IMG/VR virus record: IMGVR_UViG_3300030202_000083
Span: 1 to 31,188 of that record
Strand: one strand, 5' to 3'
Source: a virus
Length of the DNA: 31,188 bases
Of this stretch, positions 17,035-26,319 are shown piece after piece (the stretch's first letter is position 1; every line of letters starts with the position of its first letter). Position numbers and translations under genes: made by a program. The notes under the pieces were generated by a model. It was not told where the DNA came from. It worked only from the letters and a program-made list of their open reading frames with translations, and searched no databases.

Positions 17035-19545
17035 CTATATGCCGTATATAGGTGGTAGTGTACCATGGCCACCTATGTCTGCCATAGCAATATAAACATA
17101 ATTACCCAGTAATCCATTCCCTATACTGGTTATGCTATTAAACTTAATACCATTAGAAAGAAAGTCAACATCCCCCAGTGTTCCTGATGTATCTATATCT
17201 GTTGCATTAGGCCGTAAAACTAACGGATCAGTAGTGGTATTAAAAGGATTCCGCGCCATGTCTATGACGCACCAAGGAAGTCCTCCGCTGTCAGCACGCC
17301 TTATTAAAACCCAACGTGGTTTAAACTCAAAGTTTACCCAAGGACCATTAGTTGTTCCATTACCTGTGTACGATCCTACTTTACAAACACCGGGAATAGA
17401 TCTAAAGGCCATAAAAGACATAGTTGCACCGGATTGATTTGTTTGATTATTGCCAGCACCCACGAAAAAGACTGTAGAGGTAGGTGCCTGACTAGCCCAT
17501 GCTGTGCTACTAGCAGTTACCGGGGTAGTAGTATTTAATCCTAGAAAATTATTTTCAGGATTTCCATTTATACCTGTGACGTTCTTTATATATACTGCCC
17601 AGTCAGTTGAACCAGTGGTGGCATTCTTTACAAAGATAGCGTCTGGCACATCTCCTAGTGAGTGACCCACATTTGTAAAAGTGCCTGTTCCAGTAAATGT
17701 ACCTACTGAAAAGTTTTGAGCCGCTGATGTAACAAGTGTACTGTTAGTAGAACCTGTGCTATTAGTTACACCACCAGTTGCAGAGCTGCCTGCTAACCAC
17801 TGCCAGAGAACAAAGGTACCAGCGTTAAGGTTTACCTGTGAATCTGCTCCTAGCTCCCCACCCCTCTGTAAAAAGCTTGTCAGAGTATCTCCGTCAAATA
17901 CTTCAGCATCTGCAGCGTTAGAGTGTAAGTCCCGCGCCACTCCCCTTACTCTGTCATAGAGCATATGGCTAGAGGTGGCGCTTCTACTTTTTATCCAAGC
18001 AGAGGCTGTAAACTTAGAATCACTCCCGCCTCCTACAGTTTGAGTAGCACTGTTACCTGTGTAAAGGGTAGCGTCAAAGAAGTCCTTACCCTGGAAACTT
18101 GGAGTGGCTAGGTCTTCTGTGTTAATTGTTTTGTTACCGCTTCCTATGGTGTGTGGAAAGTCTGCTTCGTCAAAATGAAAGGTACAATCATAGTTATTAA
18201 AACGGGCAACTGCAGCATAGTATGTAATACCCGGTTCGGTAGATACCGTTGTTCCTTGAGCAGAATTATTTAATAAAAAGTTTAACTCATTAGCAGTGGC
18301 ATTATATCTAACCGTTATAACATCACCGCTAGACCACGGTAGTCCAAAAGCAGTTGTTGTTTGCGTACTTTGAGTTCTCTGTCTTAATGTTCCCGGCTCA
18401 TCATAAGAATACGCTGCATTAAAACCTACAGCTGAACCACCAAACGTATTGTTTGAGGGTAACGCCGCTGCTGCTAGACAGTTTTCATAACAACAAATAC
18501 CTACTCTACCCTCACCGTTGTTGGTAGTCATCTGAAATTCTGTGGTGCCTGTGGTAGCTAATGGAAGAGTGGAGAATGTTCCACTATCTCCTCCAGCTGT
18601 TCCAGTAACTCTTCTATTCCCTTCTGCAAATGTTACTGTGCCAGCATCTCCAGAAATTAACATATTCATTGTAGCATACATCTTAGAAGGTGTGTTACCA
18701 GTTGCATTTGCACTGGACATACCCGTAGGAGTAAAGTCATTGTTATTAGAACTAGCATCATTACCCAGAGACGAAGAGTTAGAAAAGTCTAGAGAGAATG
18801 AATTACCGCCTGCGTTACTGGCTAGAAGAGCTACATTTGCATCACTCTGTGGAATAACTTGTGATCCATTTGTTCCAAAAGTATGTGTACCTAAAAAGTC
18901 TGAGATAGTTGCGCTCCCACTTTGAATGGATCTACCTACTAAAAAAGTATACTGAGAAAAGTAACCTTTCCAAGGAAACAAGTCAGTGATTGCGTTATTG
19001 TACTTACCTATGAAATGGAGCGCACCACTGGTACCCCATGAGTTAAGGCTACCTGTAAAGTCAGAACCAAATATTTTAGTAAGAGCAACTTCATCCCCAT
19101 TGACAAATATTTTAACTGTGTCAGAACCAGAGGCCGTTCCATCAATTGATAAAAGAATATGATACCAACCTATATCTTTCAAGATTCTATCTGATTCGTA
19201 CTGTGTTGTTGTGGATACACCGCTTTCAGTGTGTACTTTTAATTTATCTGCAGCTGTTATTGTCAGTCTATTAGAGGCTGTACTCCCACCAGCGCCTCCT
19301 AATGAAGCAAGAATAGCTTGCTCTGTTCCTAGTGCACACCGTTGAATCCACGTACTAACAATAACCCGTGATTGAACAGCTCCACTAGAAAAAGTTTTTG
19401 AAAAAAAGTCAGAAGTATCTTCTTGCCAAACAGAACCCGTGACTAGTGAAGGGGAAAATGGATCACCACCTCCACCCCCTCCACCACCACCAGATTCAGC
19501 GGTAGCTTCTGCACCCATTAAAAGAAGATTATTAAAAGTGCTCAT
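17035..19545 (-). CDS. Large LamG/SPRY-like tail adhesin (836 aa)
   Basis: A short N-terminal segment (MSTFNNLLLMGAEATAES) leads into a nine-glycine linker (about 19-27). Next comes a concanavalin A/LamG-like domain (roughly 45-250; IGWYHILLSIDGT and KIFVNGDEV are typical strands). A second jelly-roll region (roughly 300-470) has a SPRY-like signature: WSSGDVITVRYNATANELNF. The remainder (about 480-836) resembles the phage C-terminal domain I recall as DUF7483, with FVLWQWLAG, GHSLGDVPDAIFVKNATTGS and DWAVYIKNV. LamG and SPRY-type folds bind glycans or proteins, so this is a strong candidate for the receptor-binding adhesin or a major decoration. The gene follows the APS kinase fusion after two bases and has a weak ribosome site, so it may depend on translational coupling. 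Confidence 0.7.
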   Translation of the reverse strand: MSTFNNLLLMGAEATAESGGGGGGGGGDPFSPSLVTGSVWQEDTSDFFSKTFSSGAVQSRVIVSTWIQRCALGTEQAILASLGGAGGSTASNRLTITAADKLKVHTESGVSTTTQYESDRILKDIGWYHILLSIDGTASGSDTVKIFVNGDEVALTKIFGSDFTGSLNSWGTSGALHFIGKYNNAITDLFPWKGYFSQYTFLVGRSIQSGSATISDFLGTHTFGTNGSQVIPQSDANVALLASNAGGNSFSLDFSNSSSLGNDASSNNNDFTPTGMSSANATGNTPSKMYATMNMLISGDAGTVTFAEGNRRVTGTAGGDSGTFSTLPLATTGTTEFQMTTNNGEGRVGICCYENCLAAAALPSNNTFGGSAVGFNAAYSYDEPGTLRQRTQSTQTTTAFGLPWSSGDVITVRYNATANELNFLLNNSAQGTTVSTEPGITYYAAVARFNNYDCTFHFDEADFPHTIGSGNKTINTEDLATPSFQGKDFFDATLYTGNSATQTVGGGSDSKFTASAWIKSRSATSSHMLYDRVRGVARDLHSNAADAEVFDGDTLTSFLQRGGELGADSQVNLNAGTFVLWQWLAGSSATGGVTNSTGSTNSTLVTSAAQNFSVGTFTGTGTFTNVGHSLGDVPDAIFVKNATTGSTDWAVYIKNVTGINGNPENNFLGLNTTTPVTASSTAWASQAPTSTVFFVGAGNNQTNQSGATMSFMAFRSIPGVCKVGSYTGNGTTNGPWVNFEFKPRWVLIRRADSGGLPWCVIDMARNPFNTTTDPLVLRPNATDIDTSGTLGDVDFLSNGIKFNSITSIGNGLLGNYVYIAMADIGGHGTLPPIYGI

Positions 19546-19547
19546 GT

Positions 19548-20303
19548 TTACTTAGCCATTGCTAATCTAATATCTGTTGCTGAGATGCTTTCTATCTCTT
19601 CACCCAGATGCTCCTGTTCAATTTTGTATCCAACATCTCTCCCATATGTAATGTTTACAATGTTAGGAACGTGCATAATCTCATAGTCTACACCGTAGGT
19701 AAAGTTGTGCTCTGTCAAGTCCTTTACAAGATAACTCCAGTCAAAGTACTCTTCACCTGTGTCTCTTACCATAATTATAACTTGCCCAGTTTTAGCGTGG
19801 GCTTTTTTAAAAAGTTCTCTGTGTCCAGCGTGCCAAGGTTGATAACGTCCTAACATCTGAACAGTTGGTTTTTGTCGGTCCATTCTTTTTCCATTATTAA
19901 TTGTTGTTAGTAACTCATTAATATCTGTAAGCCACTTTGTTATATGATAGTCACATTTACTCGGTTCTTCAAACATTAAATTAGTATCTTCAAAGCGTCC
20001 CTCTTTAATTGTATCCATCCAGATAGTAAAGTCTGCACCAAACTCTTCTCTGGCTTTTTCAGTAGGACAAATAAAATCAGCAACAGCAACCTGTCCTGCC
20101 ATGTTAGCACCGTCAGATAAAAACTTCATACGCATTGCTTGACGCATTCTCCCTTCTGGAGTAAAGTCCCAATCATCATACTGTTCTCTTACTTTATCTG
20201 CATTAATCCAGACACCGTTCAGTCCTTTGGCCAGAGCTTCTGCAAGGTGGCTTTTGCCTGACCCCGGTAGGCCCATCACAAGAATTTTCTTTTTAAATAT
20301 CAT
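19548..20303 (-). CDS. Bifunctional APS kinase-like / HxGH nucleotidyltransferase
   Basis: This protein is a fusion. Residues 6-120 resemble adenylylsulfate (APS) kinase: P-loop GLPGSGKS (11-18), NADKVR (34-39, in place of the usual DGDNVR), DFICP (76-80, usual D/AFISP), a WMDT strand and a FEDTNLMFEEP segment where APS kinases have F.GIDSPYE. APS kinase phosphorylates APS to make PAPS, the sulfate donor. Residues 145-251 are a nucleotidyltransferase: MLGRYQPWHAGH with HxGH at 158-161, and ISATDIR at 240-246. This half resembles NMN or cytidylyl transferases; GRD at 221-223 invites comparison with ATP sulfurylase, but that is speculative. I chose the ATG at 20303, one base after the upstream stop. 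A TTG seven codons earlier would overlap that gene. It is adjacent to a sulfotransferase, which supports the PAPS role. Confidence 0.75.
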   Translation of the reverse strand: MIFKKKILVMGLPGSGKSHLAEALAKGLNGVWINADKVREQYDDWDFTPEGRMRQAMRMKFLSDGANMAGQVAVADFICPTEKAREEFGADFTIWMDTIKEGRFEDTNLMFEEPSKCDYHITKWLTDINELLTTINNGKRMDRQKPTVQMLGRYQPWHAGHRELFKKAHAKTGQVIIMVRDTGEEYFDWSYLVKDLTEHNFTYGVDYEIMHVPNIVNITYGRDVGYKIEQEHLGEEIESISATDIRLAMAK

Positions 20304-20304
20304 T

Positions 20305-20709
20305 CTACAACTTTGCTCTTTCAACTGCTATTAAGTCTCTGTTAGCCTGAAGCCAAGCTTTTCCTTCTTCTGAGAGTACAGCCTCTGCTATTCTTGTAGG
20401 AGTTTCTAGCTGTTCAAGTCTTTCAATTTCTGCTAGAGCATGGTTTCTAGTTTTAGCTTCTCTCTCTTCTTTAGTCATATCACGTTTTCTTTCAGTAGTA
20501 GTGACAGACTCCTCAGTGATAGTTTGAACCCACCCATCAGAGACTTCATTCTCTCCTATAGTAGCTGGCTTCTCTATCAAAGGTACCCAGCCTAGTGACT
20601 TTAAAAAAGCACTATCATTAACCTTATTTAGATTAGAAGTATTACGCCAATTCCTTGGGAGCGATCCCATGTAAGTTACGCTGCCGTCTTCAACGTGTGC
20701 ATATAACAT
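20305..20709 (-). CDS. Fibre-assembly-like / tail-associated hypothetical protein
   Basis: This 134-residue protein has a short beta-rich start (MLYAHVEDGSVTYMGSLPRN) and a segment LGWVPLIEKPATIGENEVSDGW. It then has a long basic-acidic helical tail (KRDMTKEEREAKTRNHALAE and onward). This build is common in tail fibre assembly-like and minor tail proteins of marine phages, where a small N-terminal domain precedes a coiled helix. Its first 34 bases overlap the end of the sulfotransferase-glycosyltransferase gene. It thus lies between the two sulfur-related genes, so it could be the partner or target of that system, but that is inference. There are no catalytic motifs. Confidence 0.55.
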   Translation of the reverse strand: MLYAHVEDGSVTYMGSLPRNWRNTSNLNKVNDSAFLKSLGWVPLIEKPATIGENEVSDGWVQTITEESVTTTERKRDMTKEEREAKTRNHALAEIERLEQLETPTRIAEAVLSEEGKAWLQANRDLIAVERAKL

Positions 20710-22376
20710 TGTAGTTTCTCCTTAATTTGTTCAAACGGTGTAGACCAATCACCGTATTTTTCCTGTCTATAGAGGGTAACGCTATTATAGTATGGTGAAG
20801 TAGGTATAGGCAATGCCCATAAGTAGTAAGCTAATATAGGAGTGATGATCCAAGTTTCAACCCCCATGGCAGCTGCTAGGTGTGCAGTAGATGTACAGCT
20901 GGTCACCATCAGTTCACACTCACTAATAGAACGCCTAGTTGCGTTCCAGTCTTCAACCTCTGCTTGATCCATCCAGCTAGGTTTTAATTCACTACCTTCA
21001 TCTCTTTGAAGAGAAACACAGTCAGTACCTTTCACTGCATCAAACATTAAATTAGCAGGAAACAATCTATGTTGTTCATGCTCAAACTGAGGATTACCTT
21101 GCCAACGAACTCCTATTCTACCTTTGATGAGTTCAGCTGTTCTAGGTATATAAGCATCTCCCTTTAGATCACTGTACTCATAGCCCAAGGGGAGGACAGC
21201 TGACATAGAAGGACAGTAGTAATCATGGTATACTCCGGGTGCTGCTTCGTGCTGCACCGTGATAAACTGTTCTGCAAAGATAGGAGCAAGTTCAGCAGAA
21301 CAAGAGATAACAACTTTACACCCCTTCTGCTCTATGTCCTTGGCAAATCTAAAACCATGTATCTGATCACCTAGACCTCCTTCTAACTCTAATAGAACAG
21401 TTCCTTTTTCTCCCTTCCACGTAGGCATACCTGATGTTTTTCTATTTCCAAAAACATCCTCTAACCGCCCTTGGTCTAAGAGCTTATGTCCTTTCTGAAG
21501 ATTACCTCTACGTAGTTCGTACCATCCACGATTAAAAGAGGCGCGGTTATCATCAGGGTCTGCTTGTTGGGCAATCTCCCAACCCTTTTTAAAGTCACCT
21601 CGTAGACCTGCTTCAACCTGCATGTCTATTAACTCTGGCTCTCGCACTGGTTCAGGTTTATCATTCCAGAACTCACCACCTTCATAACGCTTGGCAAGCT
21701 TCTCTCCCAAAATAGAGACTACATCTAGGTTGCGGTTTGAAACTACTGGACGTACAGCGTGTAGATCTTCTATGCCCCATGCTTCATCTTGTTCTCTACT
21801 AGCTGGTACATTGTTTAGGTCGTGGGTAAACTTAGTAGTACCTACAAACTCAGCTATACGGTCCATCTGATTCTGTGTATCATTTACCAGAGCATCGTAT
21901 TCAATAAGAAGAAACTTATCTGGGTAAGCTTCGTACCCTGCTTTTAAAATGTGATAAGAACTAAAGAAATGATTTACCAGCGGTCCTTTAAAAAACTCGT
22001 TTATATCTTCTGGTTTTGATATGTTAACAAAAGATGCCAGACATTCAACAGTGGGGCGTACTGTGGCTACTATTTTTACCTCTTGAAATTTAGAAATAGT
22101 TTCTATAATTTTAGGTTGCGGCCAGCTACGACTCTTATCAAATACCATCTTCTCTGTATTGTATCTACTGTCAGAGATACCTTTAAGAATACGTATCAAG
22201 TCTTCTTCTGTACCGTTGGTGGCCTTAGTAGTTGGGTTATGCTCCCACTCTCTTACAGCTGCTCCCATTGTATCAGAAAGATTACTGGTGGGAGTAGCGT
22301 AAGTATCTCCTCTTTGATTTAGTAAAGATGTTAGTAAAGTTGAACCTGATCTAGGAAGTGATGCTAAGTAAATCAT
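20676..22376 (-). CDS. Sulfotransferase-TPR-glycosyltransferase fusion
   Basis: Residues 1-195 form a PAPS-dependent sulfotransferase domain. SLPRSGSTLL (6-15) is the 5'-phosphosulfate loop and IVATVRPTVECLASF (102-116) fits the 3'-phosphate-binding region, with R107 and S115 at expected places. Residues 255-305 look like a TPR-type helical repeat (GDFKKGWEIAQQADPDD, then SFNRGWYELRRGNLQKGHKL). Residues 325-555 resemble the GT-B glycosyltransferases that follow TPRs (GT9/GT41-like): GGLGDQIH (333-340), GVRWQGNPQFEHEQHR (422-437) and CTSTAHLAAAMGVETWII (494-511). One polypeptide could therefore both glycosylate and sulfate a target. The next genes encode a fibre-associated protein and an APS kinase fusion that could supply PAPS. 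A ribosome site is weak; the start is supported by the P-loop lying at residue 6. Confidence 0.8.
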   Translation of the reverse strand: MIYLASLPRSGSTLLTSLLNQRGDTYATPTSNLSDTMGAAVREWEHNPTTKATNGTEEDLIRILKGISDSRYNTEKMVFDKSRSWPQPKIIETISKFQEVKIVATVRPTVECLASFVNISKPEDINEFFKGPLVNHFFSSYHILKAGYEAYPDKFLLIEYDALVNDTQNQMDRIAEFVGTTKFTHDLNNVPASREQDEAWGIEDLHAVRPVVSNRNLDVVSILGEKLAKRYEGGEFWNDKPEPVREPELIDMQVEAGLRGDFKKGWEIAQQADPDDNRASFNRGWYELRRGNLQKGHKLLDQGRLEDVFGNRKTSGMPTWKGEKGTVLLELEGGLGDQIHGFRFAKDIEQKGCKVVISCSAELAPIFAEQFITVQHEAAPGVYHDYYCPSMSAVLPLGYEYSDLKGDAYIPRTAELIKGRIGVRWQGNPQFEHEQHRLFPANLMFDAVKGTDCVSLQRDEGSELKPSWMDQAEVEDWNATRRSISECELMVTSCTSTAHLAAAMGVETWIITPILAYYLWALPIPTSPYYNSVTLYRQEKYGDWSTPFEQIKEKLQCYMHTLKTAA

Positions 22377-22386
22377 AATTTTTATT

Positions 22387-23586
22387 TTATCCCGCCGATT
22401 TCAACATTGCCACGACTTGTCCACCCCCTGCACCAAAGAACACATTAGGTGCGAAGTAGTGTGTGTTGGTACCAATTTGAATAGGTGAAGAAAATTTTGC
22501 AGTTGCTGTTCCAGTTTGAAGTATATCTGGATAATTTCTACCAAATCCCCAAAGAGTACCATCTGTCTTAGTACAAAAACCTGTTCCTGCTCCAGTCAGA
22601 GCATCAGGAACTGCCCAGTCTGTAAGACTCCCAACTTGAATAGGTGATGAGTAAGTAGTGGTGTTACCCCAAGGACTGTACCCATCACCCCCTGTACCCC
22701 ATGCCCAGAAAGTTCCGTCTGTTTTTATAACGGAAGCACCGTTCTGCGTAAGCTCTATTCTAGCCCAAGTTGTTAAAGAACCTATCTGAACAGGAGAAGA
22801 ATAAGTAGTAGTATTGTTTGTTCCTACCTGTCCTTGACTGTTATGGCCCCAGCTAAAAAGCGTCCCGTCTGTTTTTATCATTGCGGCGCGATAACGAGCA
22901 ACGCCAAAGTCAGCTACTCCTGTTGCTACCTGAACTGGAGAAGAAAAGCTATAGGTTACAGCAGGGTCTACATTAACACCGAGAGATCCAAATCTATTTT
23001 GACCCCATCCCCAGAGAGTGCCGTCTGACTTTAAAGCAAAGACGCTCATATTAGAACCTCTGATTTTGCAGCTTGTACCCCAGTCTGTAAGAGAACCAAT
23101 CTGTACAACTGATGATTTATTAACTGTAGTACCGTCACCAAGCATACCCATGGTACCGTCACCCCATGCCCACAGCGTCCCGTCCTGTTTAGTGGCGTGC
23201 ATGGTAGATCTATCACAACCATTGGACAGATTTGCCCAGCCTTGATCTCCTACTATTTGAGTAAAGGGAGGAGCATAGGTTGGACCACTTGTGGTAGCTC
23301 CGTTGTTAGCTAAGATTCCCTTAGTTTGGTGGCCCCAAGCGTACATATTTCCTTCTGAAATAACAAACCCTGACAGGGACGCATTTGCCCACGCCCTTGC
23401 ACCTGTTACACCTGTTGTTCCGGGTGCTGAACCCGGTCCAGTTATTTGAATAGGAGAACTTCTAGATACTTTAGTACCAGAACCTTCAGGTAGTTGAGCA
23501 AGAGTTCCTGCACCCCACGTATATAATTGATCTCCAGCACCACCAGCACCAGCTGCTCCCATAAAACCTTTTTTTAAATTAGGCAT
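22387..23586 (-). CDS. RCC1-repeat beta-propeller protein B (399 aa)
   Basis: The protein starts MPNLKKGFMGAAGAGGAG, a short hydrophobic/Gly-Ala leader. Seven RCC1-type repeats follow, each with a WG or FG-x-x-x-x-G start and an SSP[IV]Q-like strand, for example WGHNSQGQVGTNNTTTYSSP and WGTGGDGYSPWGNTTTYSSP. Blades 2 and 3 are more divergent (YAPPFTQ, KSSVVQ). Between repeats runs a TDGTLWSWG-like strand. Seven blades close a beta-propeller, as in eukaryotic RCC1. In a phage fibre region this most likely works as a binding or decoration domain, not as a GTPase regulator. It follows its paralogue by 11 bases and has AAGGAG before its ATG. The sulfotransferase fusion starts ten bases after it. 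Repeat identity is certain, role inferred. Confidence 0.85.
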   Translation of the reverse strand: MPNLKKGFMGAAGAGGAGDQLYTWGAGTLAQLPEGSGTKVSRSSPIQITGPGSAPGTTGVTGARAWANASLSGFVISEGNMYAWGHQTKGILANNGATTSGPTYAPPFTQIVGDQGWANLSNGCDRSTMHATKQDGTLWAWGDGTMGMLGDGTTVNKSSVVQIGSLTDWGTSCKIRGSNMSVFALKSDGTLWGWGQNRFGSLGVNVDPAVTYSFSSPVQVATGVADFGVARYRAAMIKTDGTLFSWGHNSQGQVGTNNTTTYSSPVQIGSLTTWARIELTQNGASVIKTDGTFWAWGTGGDGYSPWGNTTTYSSPIQVGSLTDWAVPDALTGAGTGFCTKTDGTLWGFGRNYPDILQTGTATAKFSSPIQIGTNTHYFAPNVFFGAGGGQVVAMLKSAG

Positions 23587-23597
23587 TTATTATCTCC

Positions 23598-24851
23598 TTA
23601 TTCTTCAAACGCCCAAGCAGCGCCATAAGCAGCATAAGCAGAGACCCAAGATGTAGACGTACCTATTTGAACCGGAGAAGAATAACTAGTAGTATTACCT
23701 CTTCCTATTGCTCCTGCTCCTCCATTTCCCCATGACCAGAGAGTTCCATCAGTTTTTGTTTTTGCCCAGCTTGTCTGAAACTCAGGGTCACCCGATGCTG
23801 ATGGGCCAACACCGTTTAAGTTACCAAACCCTAGAATATTAGAACCACCAGAGTCAGTTACACCAAACCCTGCCCAAGTTGTTAGTGATCCAATTTGAAC
23901 TGGAGAAGATACACAATCATTAACACCTGTTCCCGGTCCTTCAAAACCCAACTGACCGCGACGGTTTAGCCCCCAAGAAAACATAGTACCGTTTGCTTGT
24001 ACTGCAACACACTGATTATATCCAAGTGCTATACTTGTAAAAGTTTCACTTCCTGAGACTTGAACAGGACTAGACTGATTAGCAGCACCTCCAACGCCAC
24101 CACGTTCATTATTTCCTAAATTACCGTAGTAATTATTACCCCAGCAGAATGTTTTACCATCACTCCTAATTCCCGCTGCTGCGTCTCCACCGCAGCTAAT
24201 ATCTATCCAACCTGTATAGGTACCAATTTGAACTGGAGAACTGATATTAGCTGAAGAACCATTTCCTAATCGTCCACCAAGACCGGAACCCCATGACCAG
24301 ATGGTTCCATCAGTTTTAAGAGCAGTGGTAAAGTACCTTCCCATCATAACTTTTTTCCAAGTGGTCAAGGCACCTACTTGAACTGGAGAAGAATAATTAG
24401 TAGTATTACCTCTTCCTAGTGCGCCCTGCGCACCGCATCCCCACATCCAAAGACTTCCATCAGTTTTTATAGCCGCTGATCTAGGTTTGATCTGACCCCC
24501 GCTTTGTCCTTGCCTTACAGTACTAATCCAAGCCCAAGTTGTTAAAGAACCTATTTGAACTGGAGAAGAAAGATCCGTTGTATTACTATGTCCTGTTGCA
24601 CCGTAAAGACCATCACCACAGGACCACATACTTCCGTCAGGTTTTAGAAATAAAGAATGTCCTCTACCACTTACACAAGCTCGCTGCCAATCTCCTGCAG
24701 CGCCTAGTTGAACAGGAGAAGATAGAGCAGTGGTGTTACCTAACCCTAAACCACCGTTATCATTGTTTCCCCATACAAAAAGTTTTTTACCAGAAGCACC
24801 TCCCCCAGTAGCAACAGATGCTGCCATTAAAGCTTTTTTTACATTAGGCAT
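23598..24851 (-). CDS. RCC1-repeat beta-propeller protein A (417 aa)
   Basis: After the leader MPNVKKALMAASVATGGGAS there are seven RCC1-type repeats, each ending in SSPVQ (ALSSPVQLG, DLSSPVQIG, NYSSPVQVG, NISSPVQIG, NQSSPVQVS, CVSSPVQIG, SYSSPVQIG). The WG-x-x-x-x-G-x-L/I-G turn and a K[TS]DG[TS]-[LI]W-S/M-WG strand recur. This predicts a seven-bladed propeller filling the whole protein, with no extra domain. It is a paralogue of the next gene, sharing leader, repeat number and motif, so the pair arose by tandem duplication. Its repeats are more regular than those of protein B. It probably is a receptor-binding or fibre-decoration protein. TAGGAGAG precedes the ATG. Confidence 0.85.
   Translation of the reverse strand: MPNVKKALMAASVATGGGASGKKLFVWGNNDNGGLGLGNTTALSSPVQLGAAGDWQRACVSGRGHSLFLKPDGSMWSCGDGLYGATGHSNTTDLSSPVQIGSLTTWAWISTVRQGQSGGQIKPRSAAIKTDGSLWMWGCGAQGALGRGNTTNYSSPVQVGALTTWKKVMMGRYFTTALKTDGTIWSWGSGLGGRLGNGSSANISSPVQIGTYTGWIDISCGGDAAAGIRSDGKTFCWGNNYYGNLGNNERGGVGGAANQSSPVQVSGSETFTSIALGYNQCVAVQANGTMFSWGLNRRGQLGFEGPGTGVNDCVSSPVQIGSLTTWAGFGVTDSGGSNILGFGNLNGVGPSASGDPEFQTSWAKTKTDGTLWSWGNGGAGAIGRGNTTSYSSPVQIGTSTSWVSAYAAYGAAWAFEE
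23661..24421 (-). repeat. Near-identical RCC1 repeat-unit DNA (copies at 23661-23712 and 24373-24421)
   Basis: The stretches encoding the TNYSSPVQV/TSYSSPVQI strands of blades 3 and 7 in RCC1 protein A differ at only a few bases over about 45 bases. Shorter copies of the same motif occur in the other blades and in the neighbouring RCC1 gene. The DNA similarity indicates recent duplication or gene conversion and would allow blade swapping by recombination. The units are coding and not evenly spaced, so they are not a CRISPR array. Confidence 0.7.
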
Positions 24852-24864
24852 CTAGACTCTCCTA

Positions 24865-25608
24865 CTACGGGGTCTTACTATCTAAACTAGCTGCCATTCC
24901 ATGGTAAATAGTTCCACCGTCTGTGGTCACAAAAACTAAAATATCTAACCCAGCGGCTGTAAGAGTAGGAGCAGTGCCACCGGGGAAGTCAACAGATCCT
25001 GGCCAGTTTACAGTTTGTGAACCTCCGTTGGTGAGGAAAAGTGTAAAGCCACAGAGTTCATCACTAGCAGTGGGGTTACTAAAAGTAAAAGTAGTAGTAC
25101 CTGTATCAACGGTAGCTGTTACATTGTTACCTAGGCTAATGTCAATATCTTGGGTACCACCTCCTATTGATCCAATAGCATTTGTAATTTCACCGTAGTC
25201 CTTTAGATTTATTTCACTCACTGTTCCAGCGGATATTGCTGCAGCAGCAAGAGAAGTAAGGTTAGCTCCACTGGCGGCGGGGAGAGTAGCAGGAAACCTA
25301 GCATCTGGGAGGGTCCCACTGCCTAAGTTAGTTGCGTTTAAAGCAGTGAGGTTGACGCCACTGGCAGCTGGGAGGGTGGCGGGAAACCGTGCGTCAGGGA
25401 CCGTGCCACTGGCAAGGTTAGTTGCATTAAGATCTGTAAGACCAGACCCGTCACCGCTACCACCAGAAGCTAAAAATGTAGAAGTAAGGGCGGTACCGTT
25501 TAACTCAGCTCCCGTTGCTAAGTTTACCTTACCTGTACCGTTACCGCTAAGATTAAGATCCCCATTTAAGGTGGCGCCTGTTACAGCATCTGTTTTTAAT
25601 GTACTCAT
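24865..25608 (-). CDS. Tail fibre-like protein with a 30-residue tandem repeat (247 aa)
   Basis: The N-terminus (MSTLKTDAVTGATLNGDLNL) and Gly/Thr/Asn-rich composition are typical of phage fibre shafts. A 30-residue unit containing NATNLxSGTxPDARFPATLP is repeated twice in tandem, as expected for a trimeric fibre shaft. The C-terminal part (LKDYGEITNAIG, DISLGNNVTATVDTGTTTF, LCGFTLFLTNGGSQTVNWP and a final strand) is like the globular end domain of other fibre-like genes. It lies between another fibre-like protein and the RCC1 pair, in what appears to be the adsorption cassette. Its partners are unknown. Confidence 0.75.
   Translation of the reverse strand: MSTLKTDAVTGATLNGDLNLSGNGTGKVNLATGAELNGTALTSTFLASGGSGDGSGLTDLNATNLASGTVPDARFPATLPAASGVNLTALNATNLGSGTLPDARFPATLPAASGANLTSLAAAAISAGTVSEINLKDYGEITNAIGSIGGGTQDIDISLGNNVTATVDTGTTTFTFSNPTASDELCGFTLFLTNGGSQTVNWPGSVDFPGGTAPTLTAAGLDILVFVTTDGGTIYHGMAASLDSKTP
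25261..25440 (-). repeat. 90-bp tandem repeat (two copies) in a fibre gene
   Basis: Bases 25261-25350 and 25351-25440 are two copies of one 90-base unit with scattered differences and no length change. Each encodes 30 residues including SGTxPDARFPATLPAASG. The exact multiple of three keeps the frame, so copy number can change without breaking the fibre. Confidence 0.85.
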
Positions 25609-25620
25609 TGTTCAATCCTC

Positions 25621-26319
25621 TTATATTAATGTAAGATTACCATTAACAGTTAAAGTAGTTCCAGAAGCTATCGTTATAGGAGCTGTTCCTGAAGCGTTCT
25701 CTATAGTGGTAATAACTGTATCTGTATTTAACTCTTGTTCATTGATACGGAAGATATCTCCGGGTCCTGTGGTGGGATCACCCGTATCCCCGTTGTCACC
25801 TTTAAAGAAACCACCTCCTGCTCCTGCATCTACAAAACTTAATGTATCAGTTCCATTGGTCTGCAGCACTTGACCATTGTTACCAGCAGAAGAAGGATAA
25901 GTCAAGACCCCAGCAAGTAAACTAGTGGCAGATACAGTAGCCCCACCTATGGCAGTGGCAGTTAGGTCTGTAAGACTAAGAGAAGGGTTAATTCTAGCAG
26001 TAACACTGGTGAGTGCAGTGCTAACAGAGGTACCCTCCTCTGTCAGGAGGATTGTCCCGTCATTGGCGGTTAAAGCTTTAAAACCACCAAGGGCTATATT
26101 ATTAAGCTGATCTGCTGTGGCAGTAAGAACTGTACCCCGGAGAGCAAACTGGCCCGTGACGTTTAACTGTGCCGTACTCATAGAGATAGGGGCAGCAGTT
26201 CCTCCACCATCTTGAATAGCCCTGACTGTACCGTCAAGACCATCATTAGGATTTTCTGCATTGACTTGCAGCAAATCCTTGTAAGTGTTAGCTATCAGTT
26301 GGTTTGTTAGATCAGCCAT
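25621..26319 (-). CDS. Tail fibre / structural protein (232 aa)
   Basis: The sequence starts MADLTNQLIANTYKDLLQVN, followed by a beta-rich Thr/Ala/Gly shaft. YPSSAGNNGQVLQTNGTDTL is a very common fibre element, usually followed by a strand (SFVDAG here). A short collagen-like patch (KGDNGDTGDPTTGPGD) follows, and then a C-terminal beta segment that ends in TLTVNGNLTLI. It has AAAGGA about ten bases ahead of its ATG. It is first in a run of fibre and propeller genes. Function is probably a fibre or baseplate-connecting protein; no receptor specificity can be read. Confidence 0.7.
   Translation of the reverse strand: MADLTNQLIANTYKDLLQVNAENPNDGLDGTVRAIQDGGGTAAPISMSTAQLNVTGQFALRGTVLTATADQLNNIALGGFKALTANDGTILLTEEGTSVSTALTSVTARINPSLSLTDLTATAIGGATVSATSLLAGVLTYPSSAGNNGQVLQTNGTDTLSFVDAGAGGGFFKGDNGDTGDPTTGPGDIFRINEQELNTDTVITTIENASGTAPITIASGTTLTVNGNLTLI

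Follow-up and report, generated by a model that had tools for sequence, protein, structure and literature searches.

The closest described relatives of the system reported here are the bifunctional 3'-phosphoadenosine 5'-phosphosulfate (PAPS) synthases, such as human PAPSS1/2 and the Aquifex Sat-APS kinase (2gks), in which a domain of the adenosine 5'-phosphosulfate (APS) kinase family is fused to an HxGH-type nucleotidyltransferase (NT). Bacterial counterparts include CysC, CysNC and CysDN, where CysD is of the PAPS-reductase/PP-loop type and CysN is a GTPase. As for phage sulfotransferases, their function was considered unclear in a study of marine phages (PMC10580990). We analyzed a stretch of 31,188 nucleotides (hereafter the window) from the 41,648-base virus record IMGVR_UViG_3300030202_000083 of IMG/VR. 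On its minus strand, it encodes a kinase-NT fusion (19548..20303) close to a 566-residue sulfotransferase-glycosyltransferase (20676..22376). With a probability of roughly 70%, we read kinase-NT as a compact, non-canonical PAPS synthase of predicted activity, in which the NT domain replaces ATP sulfurylase and which feeds the neighbouring sulfotransferase-glycosyltransferase. The C-terminal NT domain would join sulfate and ATP into APS, the N-terminal APS-kinase-like domain would phosphorylate the 3'-OH of APS to give PAPS, and the adjacent protein would spend PAPS, probably on an adsorption-linked surface structure (fibre protein or host glycan). What the two domains act on, how they are coupled and what is sulfated are inferred. 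The proposed overall reaction is that of PAPSS1/2 and 2gks, but the viral NT domain has only about 110 residues, is not an ATP sulfurylase homologue by profile and lacks QxRN at its HxGH motif, and the kinase lid is deleted. With the bacterial Cys proteins, kinase-NT shares the kinase family and a linkage to sulfotransferases and DUF2061; found where CysD and CysN are absent, it is proposed to need neither.

Domain identities, conserved motifs, co-occurrence and the absence of canonical ATP sulfurylase from most bacterial carriers were all computed here. The original prediction, made from the letters of this stretch, had described an APS kinase-like protein fused to an HxGH nucleotidyltransferase, and both halves were recognized by Pfam above the cut-offs: APS_kinase (5.5e-7, 30.2 bits against a cut-off of 21.1) and CTP_transf_like (3.7e-4). 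The entire fusion is also spanned by phrog_10255 (9e-62), whose name, "kinase", gives no pathway. The mechanically called open reading frame (ORF) starts at a TTG (20324, 258 residues); the likely start is an ATG at 20303, giving 251 residues. Within it, the APS-kinase-like domain (19884..20303, minus strand) was delimited by a profile match to the APS kinase 2yvu (3e-16), by Foldseek, whose top matches were APS kinases (1e-6), and by alignment with canonical CysC. An alignment of 35 homologues (A3) contained 40 invariant residues, including the P-loop, D43, R46, F54, R59, R65, HxGH, YGRxVGY and IS.T..R. The P-loop GLPGSGKS (residues 18-25 in the 258-residue numbering used throughout; 20250..20273, minus strand) has G18, G21, G23 and K24 invariant. 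Through canonical CysC, residues F54, R59 and F111 (F or Y) align with Phe492, Arg497 and Phe576 of Mycobacterium tuberculosis CysC, which hold the adenine of APS (PMC4373884), and by this alignment the kinase domain has the adenine clamp of an APS kinase. The structural model had a mean pLDDT (predicted local distance difference test) of 85 and a pTM (predicted template modeling score) of 0.60, so that the relative placement of the two domains is uncertain. Matches to defence systems were set aside, as they reflected weak P-loop similarity only.

The NT domain (about residues 150-258; 19551..19877, minus strand) was recognized by a match to NMN (nicotinamide mononucleotide) adenylyltransferase profiles and a 24-member alignment (A5). 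It contains the nucleotide-binding motif HAGH (residues 165-168; 19821..19832), with H165, G167 and H168 invariant, the motif YGRDVGY (residues 227-233; 19626..19646), with Y227, G228, R229, V231, G232 and Y233 invariant, and the motif ISATDIR (residues 247-253; 19566..19586), with I247, S248, T250 and R253 invariant, all on the minus strand. The HxGH and S.T..R motifs of HxGH nucleotidyltransferases are thus invariant in both A3 and A5. ISATDIR resembles ISGTKIR of a Sat protein and SGTEIR of an NMN adenylyltransferase. Homology to ATP sulfurylase was considered and rejected: PF01747, the Sat-type ATP sulfurylase family, matched nowhere in kinase-NT, hhalign aligned only 10 columns of the NT domain with ATP sulfurylase, indicating no real relation, and the GRD (Sat GRDHAG) and ISxTxIR stretches that the two share are no more than similar motifs. 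Kinase-NT also belongs to families other than the CysDN-type ATP sulfurylase, and neither CysD nor CysN is encoded beside it in the window.

Most of the support for PAPS synthesis comes from outside the window, namely from the genomic context in phages and bacteria. A scan of bacterial genomes confirmed at least 578 relatives of kinase-NT. The best 80, whose loci are described here, were mainly from SAR11, SAR86 and other marine Alpha- and Gammaproteobacteria and included SAR116-like loci; a few titles (Paceibacterota and Euryarchaeota metagenome-assembled genomes) possibly reflect misbinned contigs. Instead of a fusion, SAR86 and some other carriers have separate short ORFs for kinase and NT, in most cases overlapping. 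In 8 of the 80 loci, the gene immediately upstream of kinase-NT encodes a Sulfotransfer_3 protein. A CysQ-type gene adjoins it in SAR116-like loci, with the match in genome G140 (locus L231) above the equivalog cut-off of TIGR01331; since CysQ-type matches are near universal, control genomes included, only this adjacency is informative. Among 50 bacterial carriers, Sat was found in one and CysD in three others, leaving 46 with neither, and Sulfotransfer_3 was present in 35.

We then compared 151 genomes from the SAR86 order (that of genome G134). The A3 profile matched 81 of them and Sulfotransfer_3 matched 87. One A3 match, in G222, was weak (2.7e-13) and was taken as a CysC domain because the locus lacks kinase-NT and encodes CysD adjacent to a CysN-CysC fusion. 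After this correction, 76 genomes had both kinase-NT and a sulfotransferase, 4 had kinase-NT only, 11 a sulfotransferase only and 60 neither, i.e., a sulfotransferase was present in 76/80 genomes with kinase-NT versus 11/71 without it. CysD was found in G222 only, as a canonical CysD/CysNC pair (Sat was not part of the search over the 151 genomes). Kinase-NT appears to substitute for the textbook PAPS-making enzyme that SAR86 and other abundant bacteria of the ocean lack.

The phage survey retained 80 loci from the kinase-NT search and 80 from the sulfotransferase search. Out of 50 records carrying the sulfotransferase-glycosyltransferase fusion, some of them partial, 24 matched the kinase-NT profile: 20 over its full length, three in the kinase only and one, BUCT-ZZ01, in a weak partial NT. 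The kinase domain was therefore present in 23 of the 50, in 20 cases with NT. Of 116 control loci, only one had the pair, and its contig was one in which both had been found before. Specifically, in a profile scan of 36 structural loci the two were found only together, in L336 (the contig of L001), while 80 capsid loci yielded no kinase-NT and one sulfotransferase. The observation itself is more than chance, as intact homologues number in the dozens and their catalytic motifs do not vary. Conversely, PF13469 was found at E≤0.001 in 5 of 50 kinase-NT phage records (3 above the cut-off); in a near-identical set of 50, 13 records had PF03567 at E≤0.01 (10 above the cut-off) and 9 had PF00685 (2 above the cut-off). 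The rarity of PF13469 had suggested that kinase-NT is unrelated to sulfotransferases, a view that was softened because the neighbours are Sulfotransfer_2 or RSGST-motif proteins, with many carriers still having none. In all, four kinds of sulfotransferase or sulfotransferase-like proteins adjoin kinase-NT or lie within about 600 bases: the fusion, a single Sulfotransfer_3, Sulfotransfer_2 and the RSGST-motif family. In phage DLP_6, an annotated sulfotransferase lies about 90 kb from kinase-NT.

The RSGST family (cluster 32) had no Pfam or PDB match, and so is called only sulfotransferase-like; it is possibly a new sulfotransferase family. In four loci (L021-L024), tandem copies of this family of about 280 residues, with an N-terminal NRSGSTILTDL, lie about 2-1200 bases upstream of kinase-NT. 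In freshwater phages (L115, L119, L121, L124, L156 and others), a UDP-galactopyranose mutase gene directly precedes kinase-NT, with glycosyltransferases and a methyltransferase nearby. Phage Bhz60 has a NADAR-domain gene, then kinase-NT and then a DNA methyltransferase (L160, 7559-8735), and the order is similar in Suzuki and AhaSv. Three freshwater phages (L108, L109, L116) have the sulfotransferase fusion and a kinase without NT; a TagD-like cytidylyltransferase family was observed near this kinase in L108 and L109.

The small membrane protein DUF2061 is another recurrent neighbour, which in about 29 phage loci is adjacent or close to kinase-NT. It is even encoded between kinase and NT in SAR86 (L216, 7399-7614) and in some phages (e.g., L062, 8459-8680). 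In Mesorhizobium huakuii, the gene order is sulfotransferase, DUF2061, cysD, cysN; in three other plasmids, the neighbours of DUF2061 were unrelated, and the literature found on this family concerns iron. Its neighbourhood points to a link with sulfate but is no proof, and DUF2061 is a candidate sulfate-related membrane protein.

The presumed consumer of PAPS is the 566-residue protein (20676..22376, minus strand), which we aligned with its homologues (27 members, A2) and modeled (mean pLDDT 89, pTM 0.62). It had been predicted to join a sulfotransferase domain with an N-terminal SLPRSGSTLL to a GT-B-like domain through tetratricopeptide repeats (TPR), and both terminal domains were borne out. 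The sulfotransferase domain (about residues 1-240; 21657..22376, minus strand) was identified by Pfam, with Sulfotransfer_3 (E=2e-12) and Sulfotransfer_1 (6e-10) above the cut-offs, and by Foldseek, the best matches being human tyrosylprotein sulfotransferases TPST2/TPST1 with PAP bound (E about 1e-6). The family profile matched TPSTs as well as CurM/Ols sulfotransferases. In the PAPS-binding loop LPRSGSTLL (residues 7-15; 22332..22358, minus strand), R9, S10, G11, S12 and T13 are invariant in the 27 homologues, R107 is also invariant, and S115 nearly so. Sequence and model together thus show the 5'-PSB loop, the 3'-phosphate-binding Arg/Ser pair and the fold of a PAPS-dependent sulfotransferase. 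The TPR-like helical linker (about residues 246-306; 21459..21641, minus strand) was less clear-cut, with helices in the model and family profile matches to designed TPR proteins, but a weak Pfam match (TPR_16, 0.07). The GT-B domain (about residues 320-566; 20676..21419, minus strand) matched TibC (4rap), WaaC and GT9 (3tov) in Foldseek, although its score for the GT9/TibC family TIGR04414 was only 12 bits versus a cut-off of 200. The two halves thus resemble, in predicted fold, TPSTs and TibC/GT9 heptosyltransferases, but the phage protein differs from both groups in fusing the two domains via a TPR-like linker and in occurring in phage adhesin islands. As both groups include protein modifiers, the models hint at a protein target.

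The claim that the phage supplies its own PAPS is well supported by genomic context. Moreover, it is likely and more interesting than first stated, because the NT domain probably gives the first pathway step and the module is common to abundant marine bacteria. The original prediction did not recognize the HxGH domain as the likely first step (sulfate + ATP to APS), and it also missed the spread in marine bacteria. Nevertheless, several observations weigh against a PAPS synthase. The resemblance to APS kinases is incomplete: the canonical CysC lid RDPKGLYKKAREGT is missing, with about 16 residues deleted and only R110 aligning, and in CysC this lid (RDPKGLYKKA) carries Lys562 and the ATP-stacking Arg559 (PMC4373884). 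By sequence, the NT domain is nearest to NMN adenylyltransferases (1f9a, 1.5e-7), and its profile search returned no ATP sulfurylase among the matches. The test set by the original prediction, whether the two genes occur independently, gave a mixed answer: the kinase accompanies nearly half of the sulfotransferase fusions, yet the fusion is absent from most kinase-NT phage contigs, and many, including the complete phages Suzuki, Bhz60 and AhaSv, have no sulfotransferase by the three Pfam profiles. The SAR86 association (odds ratio 104, p about 1e-25) treats genomes as independent and is uncorrected for kinship and completeness. Finally, the replacement of kinase-NT by CysD rests on the single genome G222.

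Among the alternatives, the one that survives best, although rather unlikely, is that the kinase makes PAPS from host-supplied APS while NT does another job, such as making another dinucleotide or adenylylated compound. The NMN adenylyltransferase-like sequence of NT and the freshwater phages with a kinase but no NT would agree with it. However, the 46 of 50 bacterial carriers without Sat or CysD have no such source of APS, yet sulfotransferases occur in 35 of the 50, and kinase and NT remain linked, as a fusion or as overlapping genes. It is also unlikely that kinase-NT makes a different 3'-phosphorylated nucleotide donor. This possibility is raised by analogy with CDP-phosphoramidate synthesis in Campylobacter, where CDP-NH2 is the substrate of an APS-kinase homologue; members of the APS-kinase family can act on other nucleotides, and the altered lid and an NT unrelated to ATP sulfurylase would fit. 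The adenine clamp residues are kept, though, and the repeated linkage to ordinary sulfotransferase families, CysQ and DUF2061 also speaks against it. There is little chance that kinase-NT and the sulfotransferase share a variable adhesin island without any functional connection. The hypervariability of the island across relatives and the absence of the fusion from most kinase-NT phages would fit, but the two occur together in phages and also, as independent evidence, in the genomes and operons of SAR86. A NadR-type NAD-salvage enzyme (kinase plus NMN adenylyltransferase) is very improbable despite a GRYQPxHxGH motif, weak NadR matches and the NADAR-domain neighbour in Bhz60, as the NadR equivalog scored 30.1 bits against a cut-off of 341, the sulfotransferase association recurs in phages and bacteria, and both profile and fold place the kinase with APS kinases, not with NadR, on which ground this and a plain NMN adenylyltransferase reading were rejected. 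Compared with NMN adenylyltransferases (MJ0541, 1f9a) and NadR, the NT domain shares the GRxQPxHxGH start and the C-terminal S.T.IR motif, but it is shorter, and its kinase partner is not the ribosylnicotinamide kinase of NadR.

The local gene arrangement agreed with the original prediction. The three genes lie on the minus strand, a 134-residue ORF (20305..20709) overlapping the sulfotransferase-glycosyltransferase gene by 34 bases (20676-20709) and the ATG of kinase-NT at 20303 following one base past the stop of this ORF. The ORF had been called fibre-associated, which holds for its position among fibre genes; it had no Pfam or NCBIfam match and a single marginal PHROG match to a family of unassigned function, and its family (cluster 17) adjoins kinase-NT only in the closest relatives. 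As predicted, the cassette lies amid fibre/adhesin genes, flanked by RCC1-repeat proteins and a DUF7483 fibre-like protein. The RCC1-repeat (beta-propeller) proteins form a tandem pair just upstream of the cassette (22387-24851), within the adhesin island, and RCC1-like genes recur close to kinase-NT or the sulfotransferase in about 25 loci. Elsewhere, the record encodes a terminase, a capsid protein and an SU10-type adaptor, and a partial ORF at the window edge (2-1345) matches phage DNA methyltransferases. When 17 related contigs were aligned with the window, the backbone on either side (to about 17.1 kb, and again beyond about 26 kb) was kept wherever covered, whereas the hypervariable stretch between (about 17100-26000) was largely replaced across most of them; two contigs keep the fibre gene at 17.0-19.5 kb and diverge beyond. 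Because the flanks are conserved, the stretch between them is replaced and structural loci mostly lack the cassette, we conclude that the cassette sits in a swappable adhesin island.

In open-access full text, neither the kinase-NT module nor an NMN adenylyltransferase-like ATP sulfurylase was found described; most subscription papers and preprints were outside this scope, and an earlier description is possible. SAR86 and SAR11 rank with the most abundant bacteria of the ocean and are generally described as organisms without assimilatory sulfate reduction. On balance, we favour the view that NT represents a third, NMN adenylyltransferase-like class of ATP sulfurylase, and that kinase-NT is among the smallest PAPS synthases, supplying sulfation in phages and in SAR86, SAR11 and SAR116 bacteria without textbook sulfate activation. 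If true, an unrecognized kind of sulfate-activating enzyme would be added to those known, a hidden PAPS route would explain the sulfotransferases in many of the SAR86 and SAR11 genomes examined, and phages would gain a self-contained means of sulfating surface structures.

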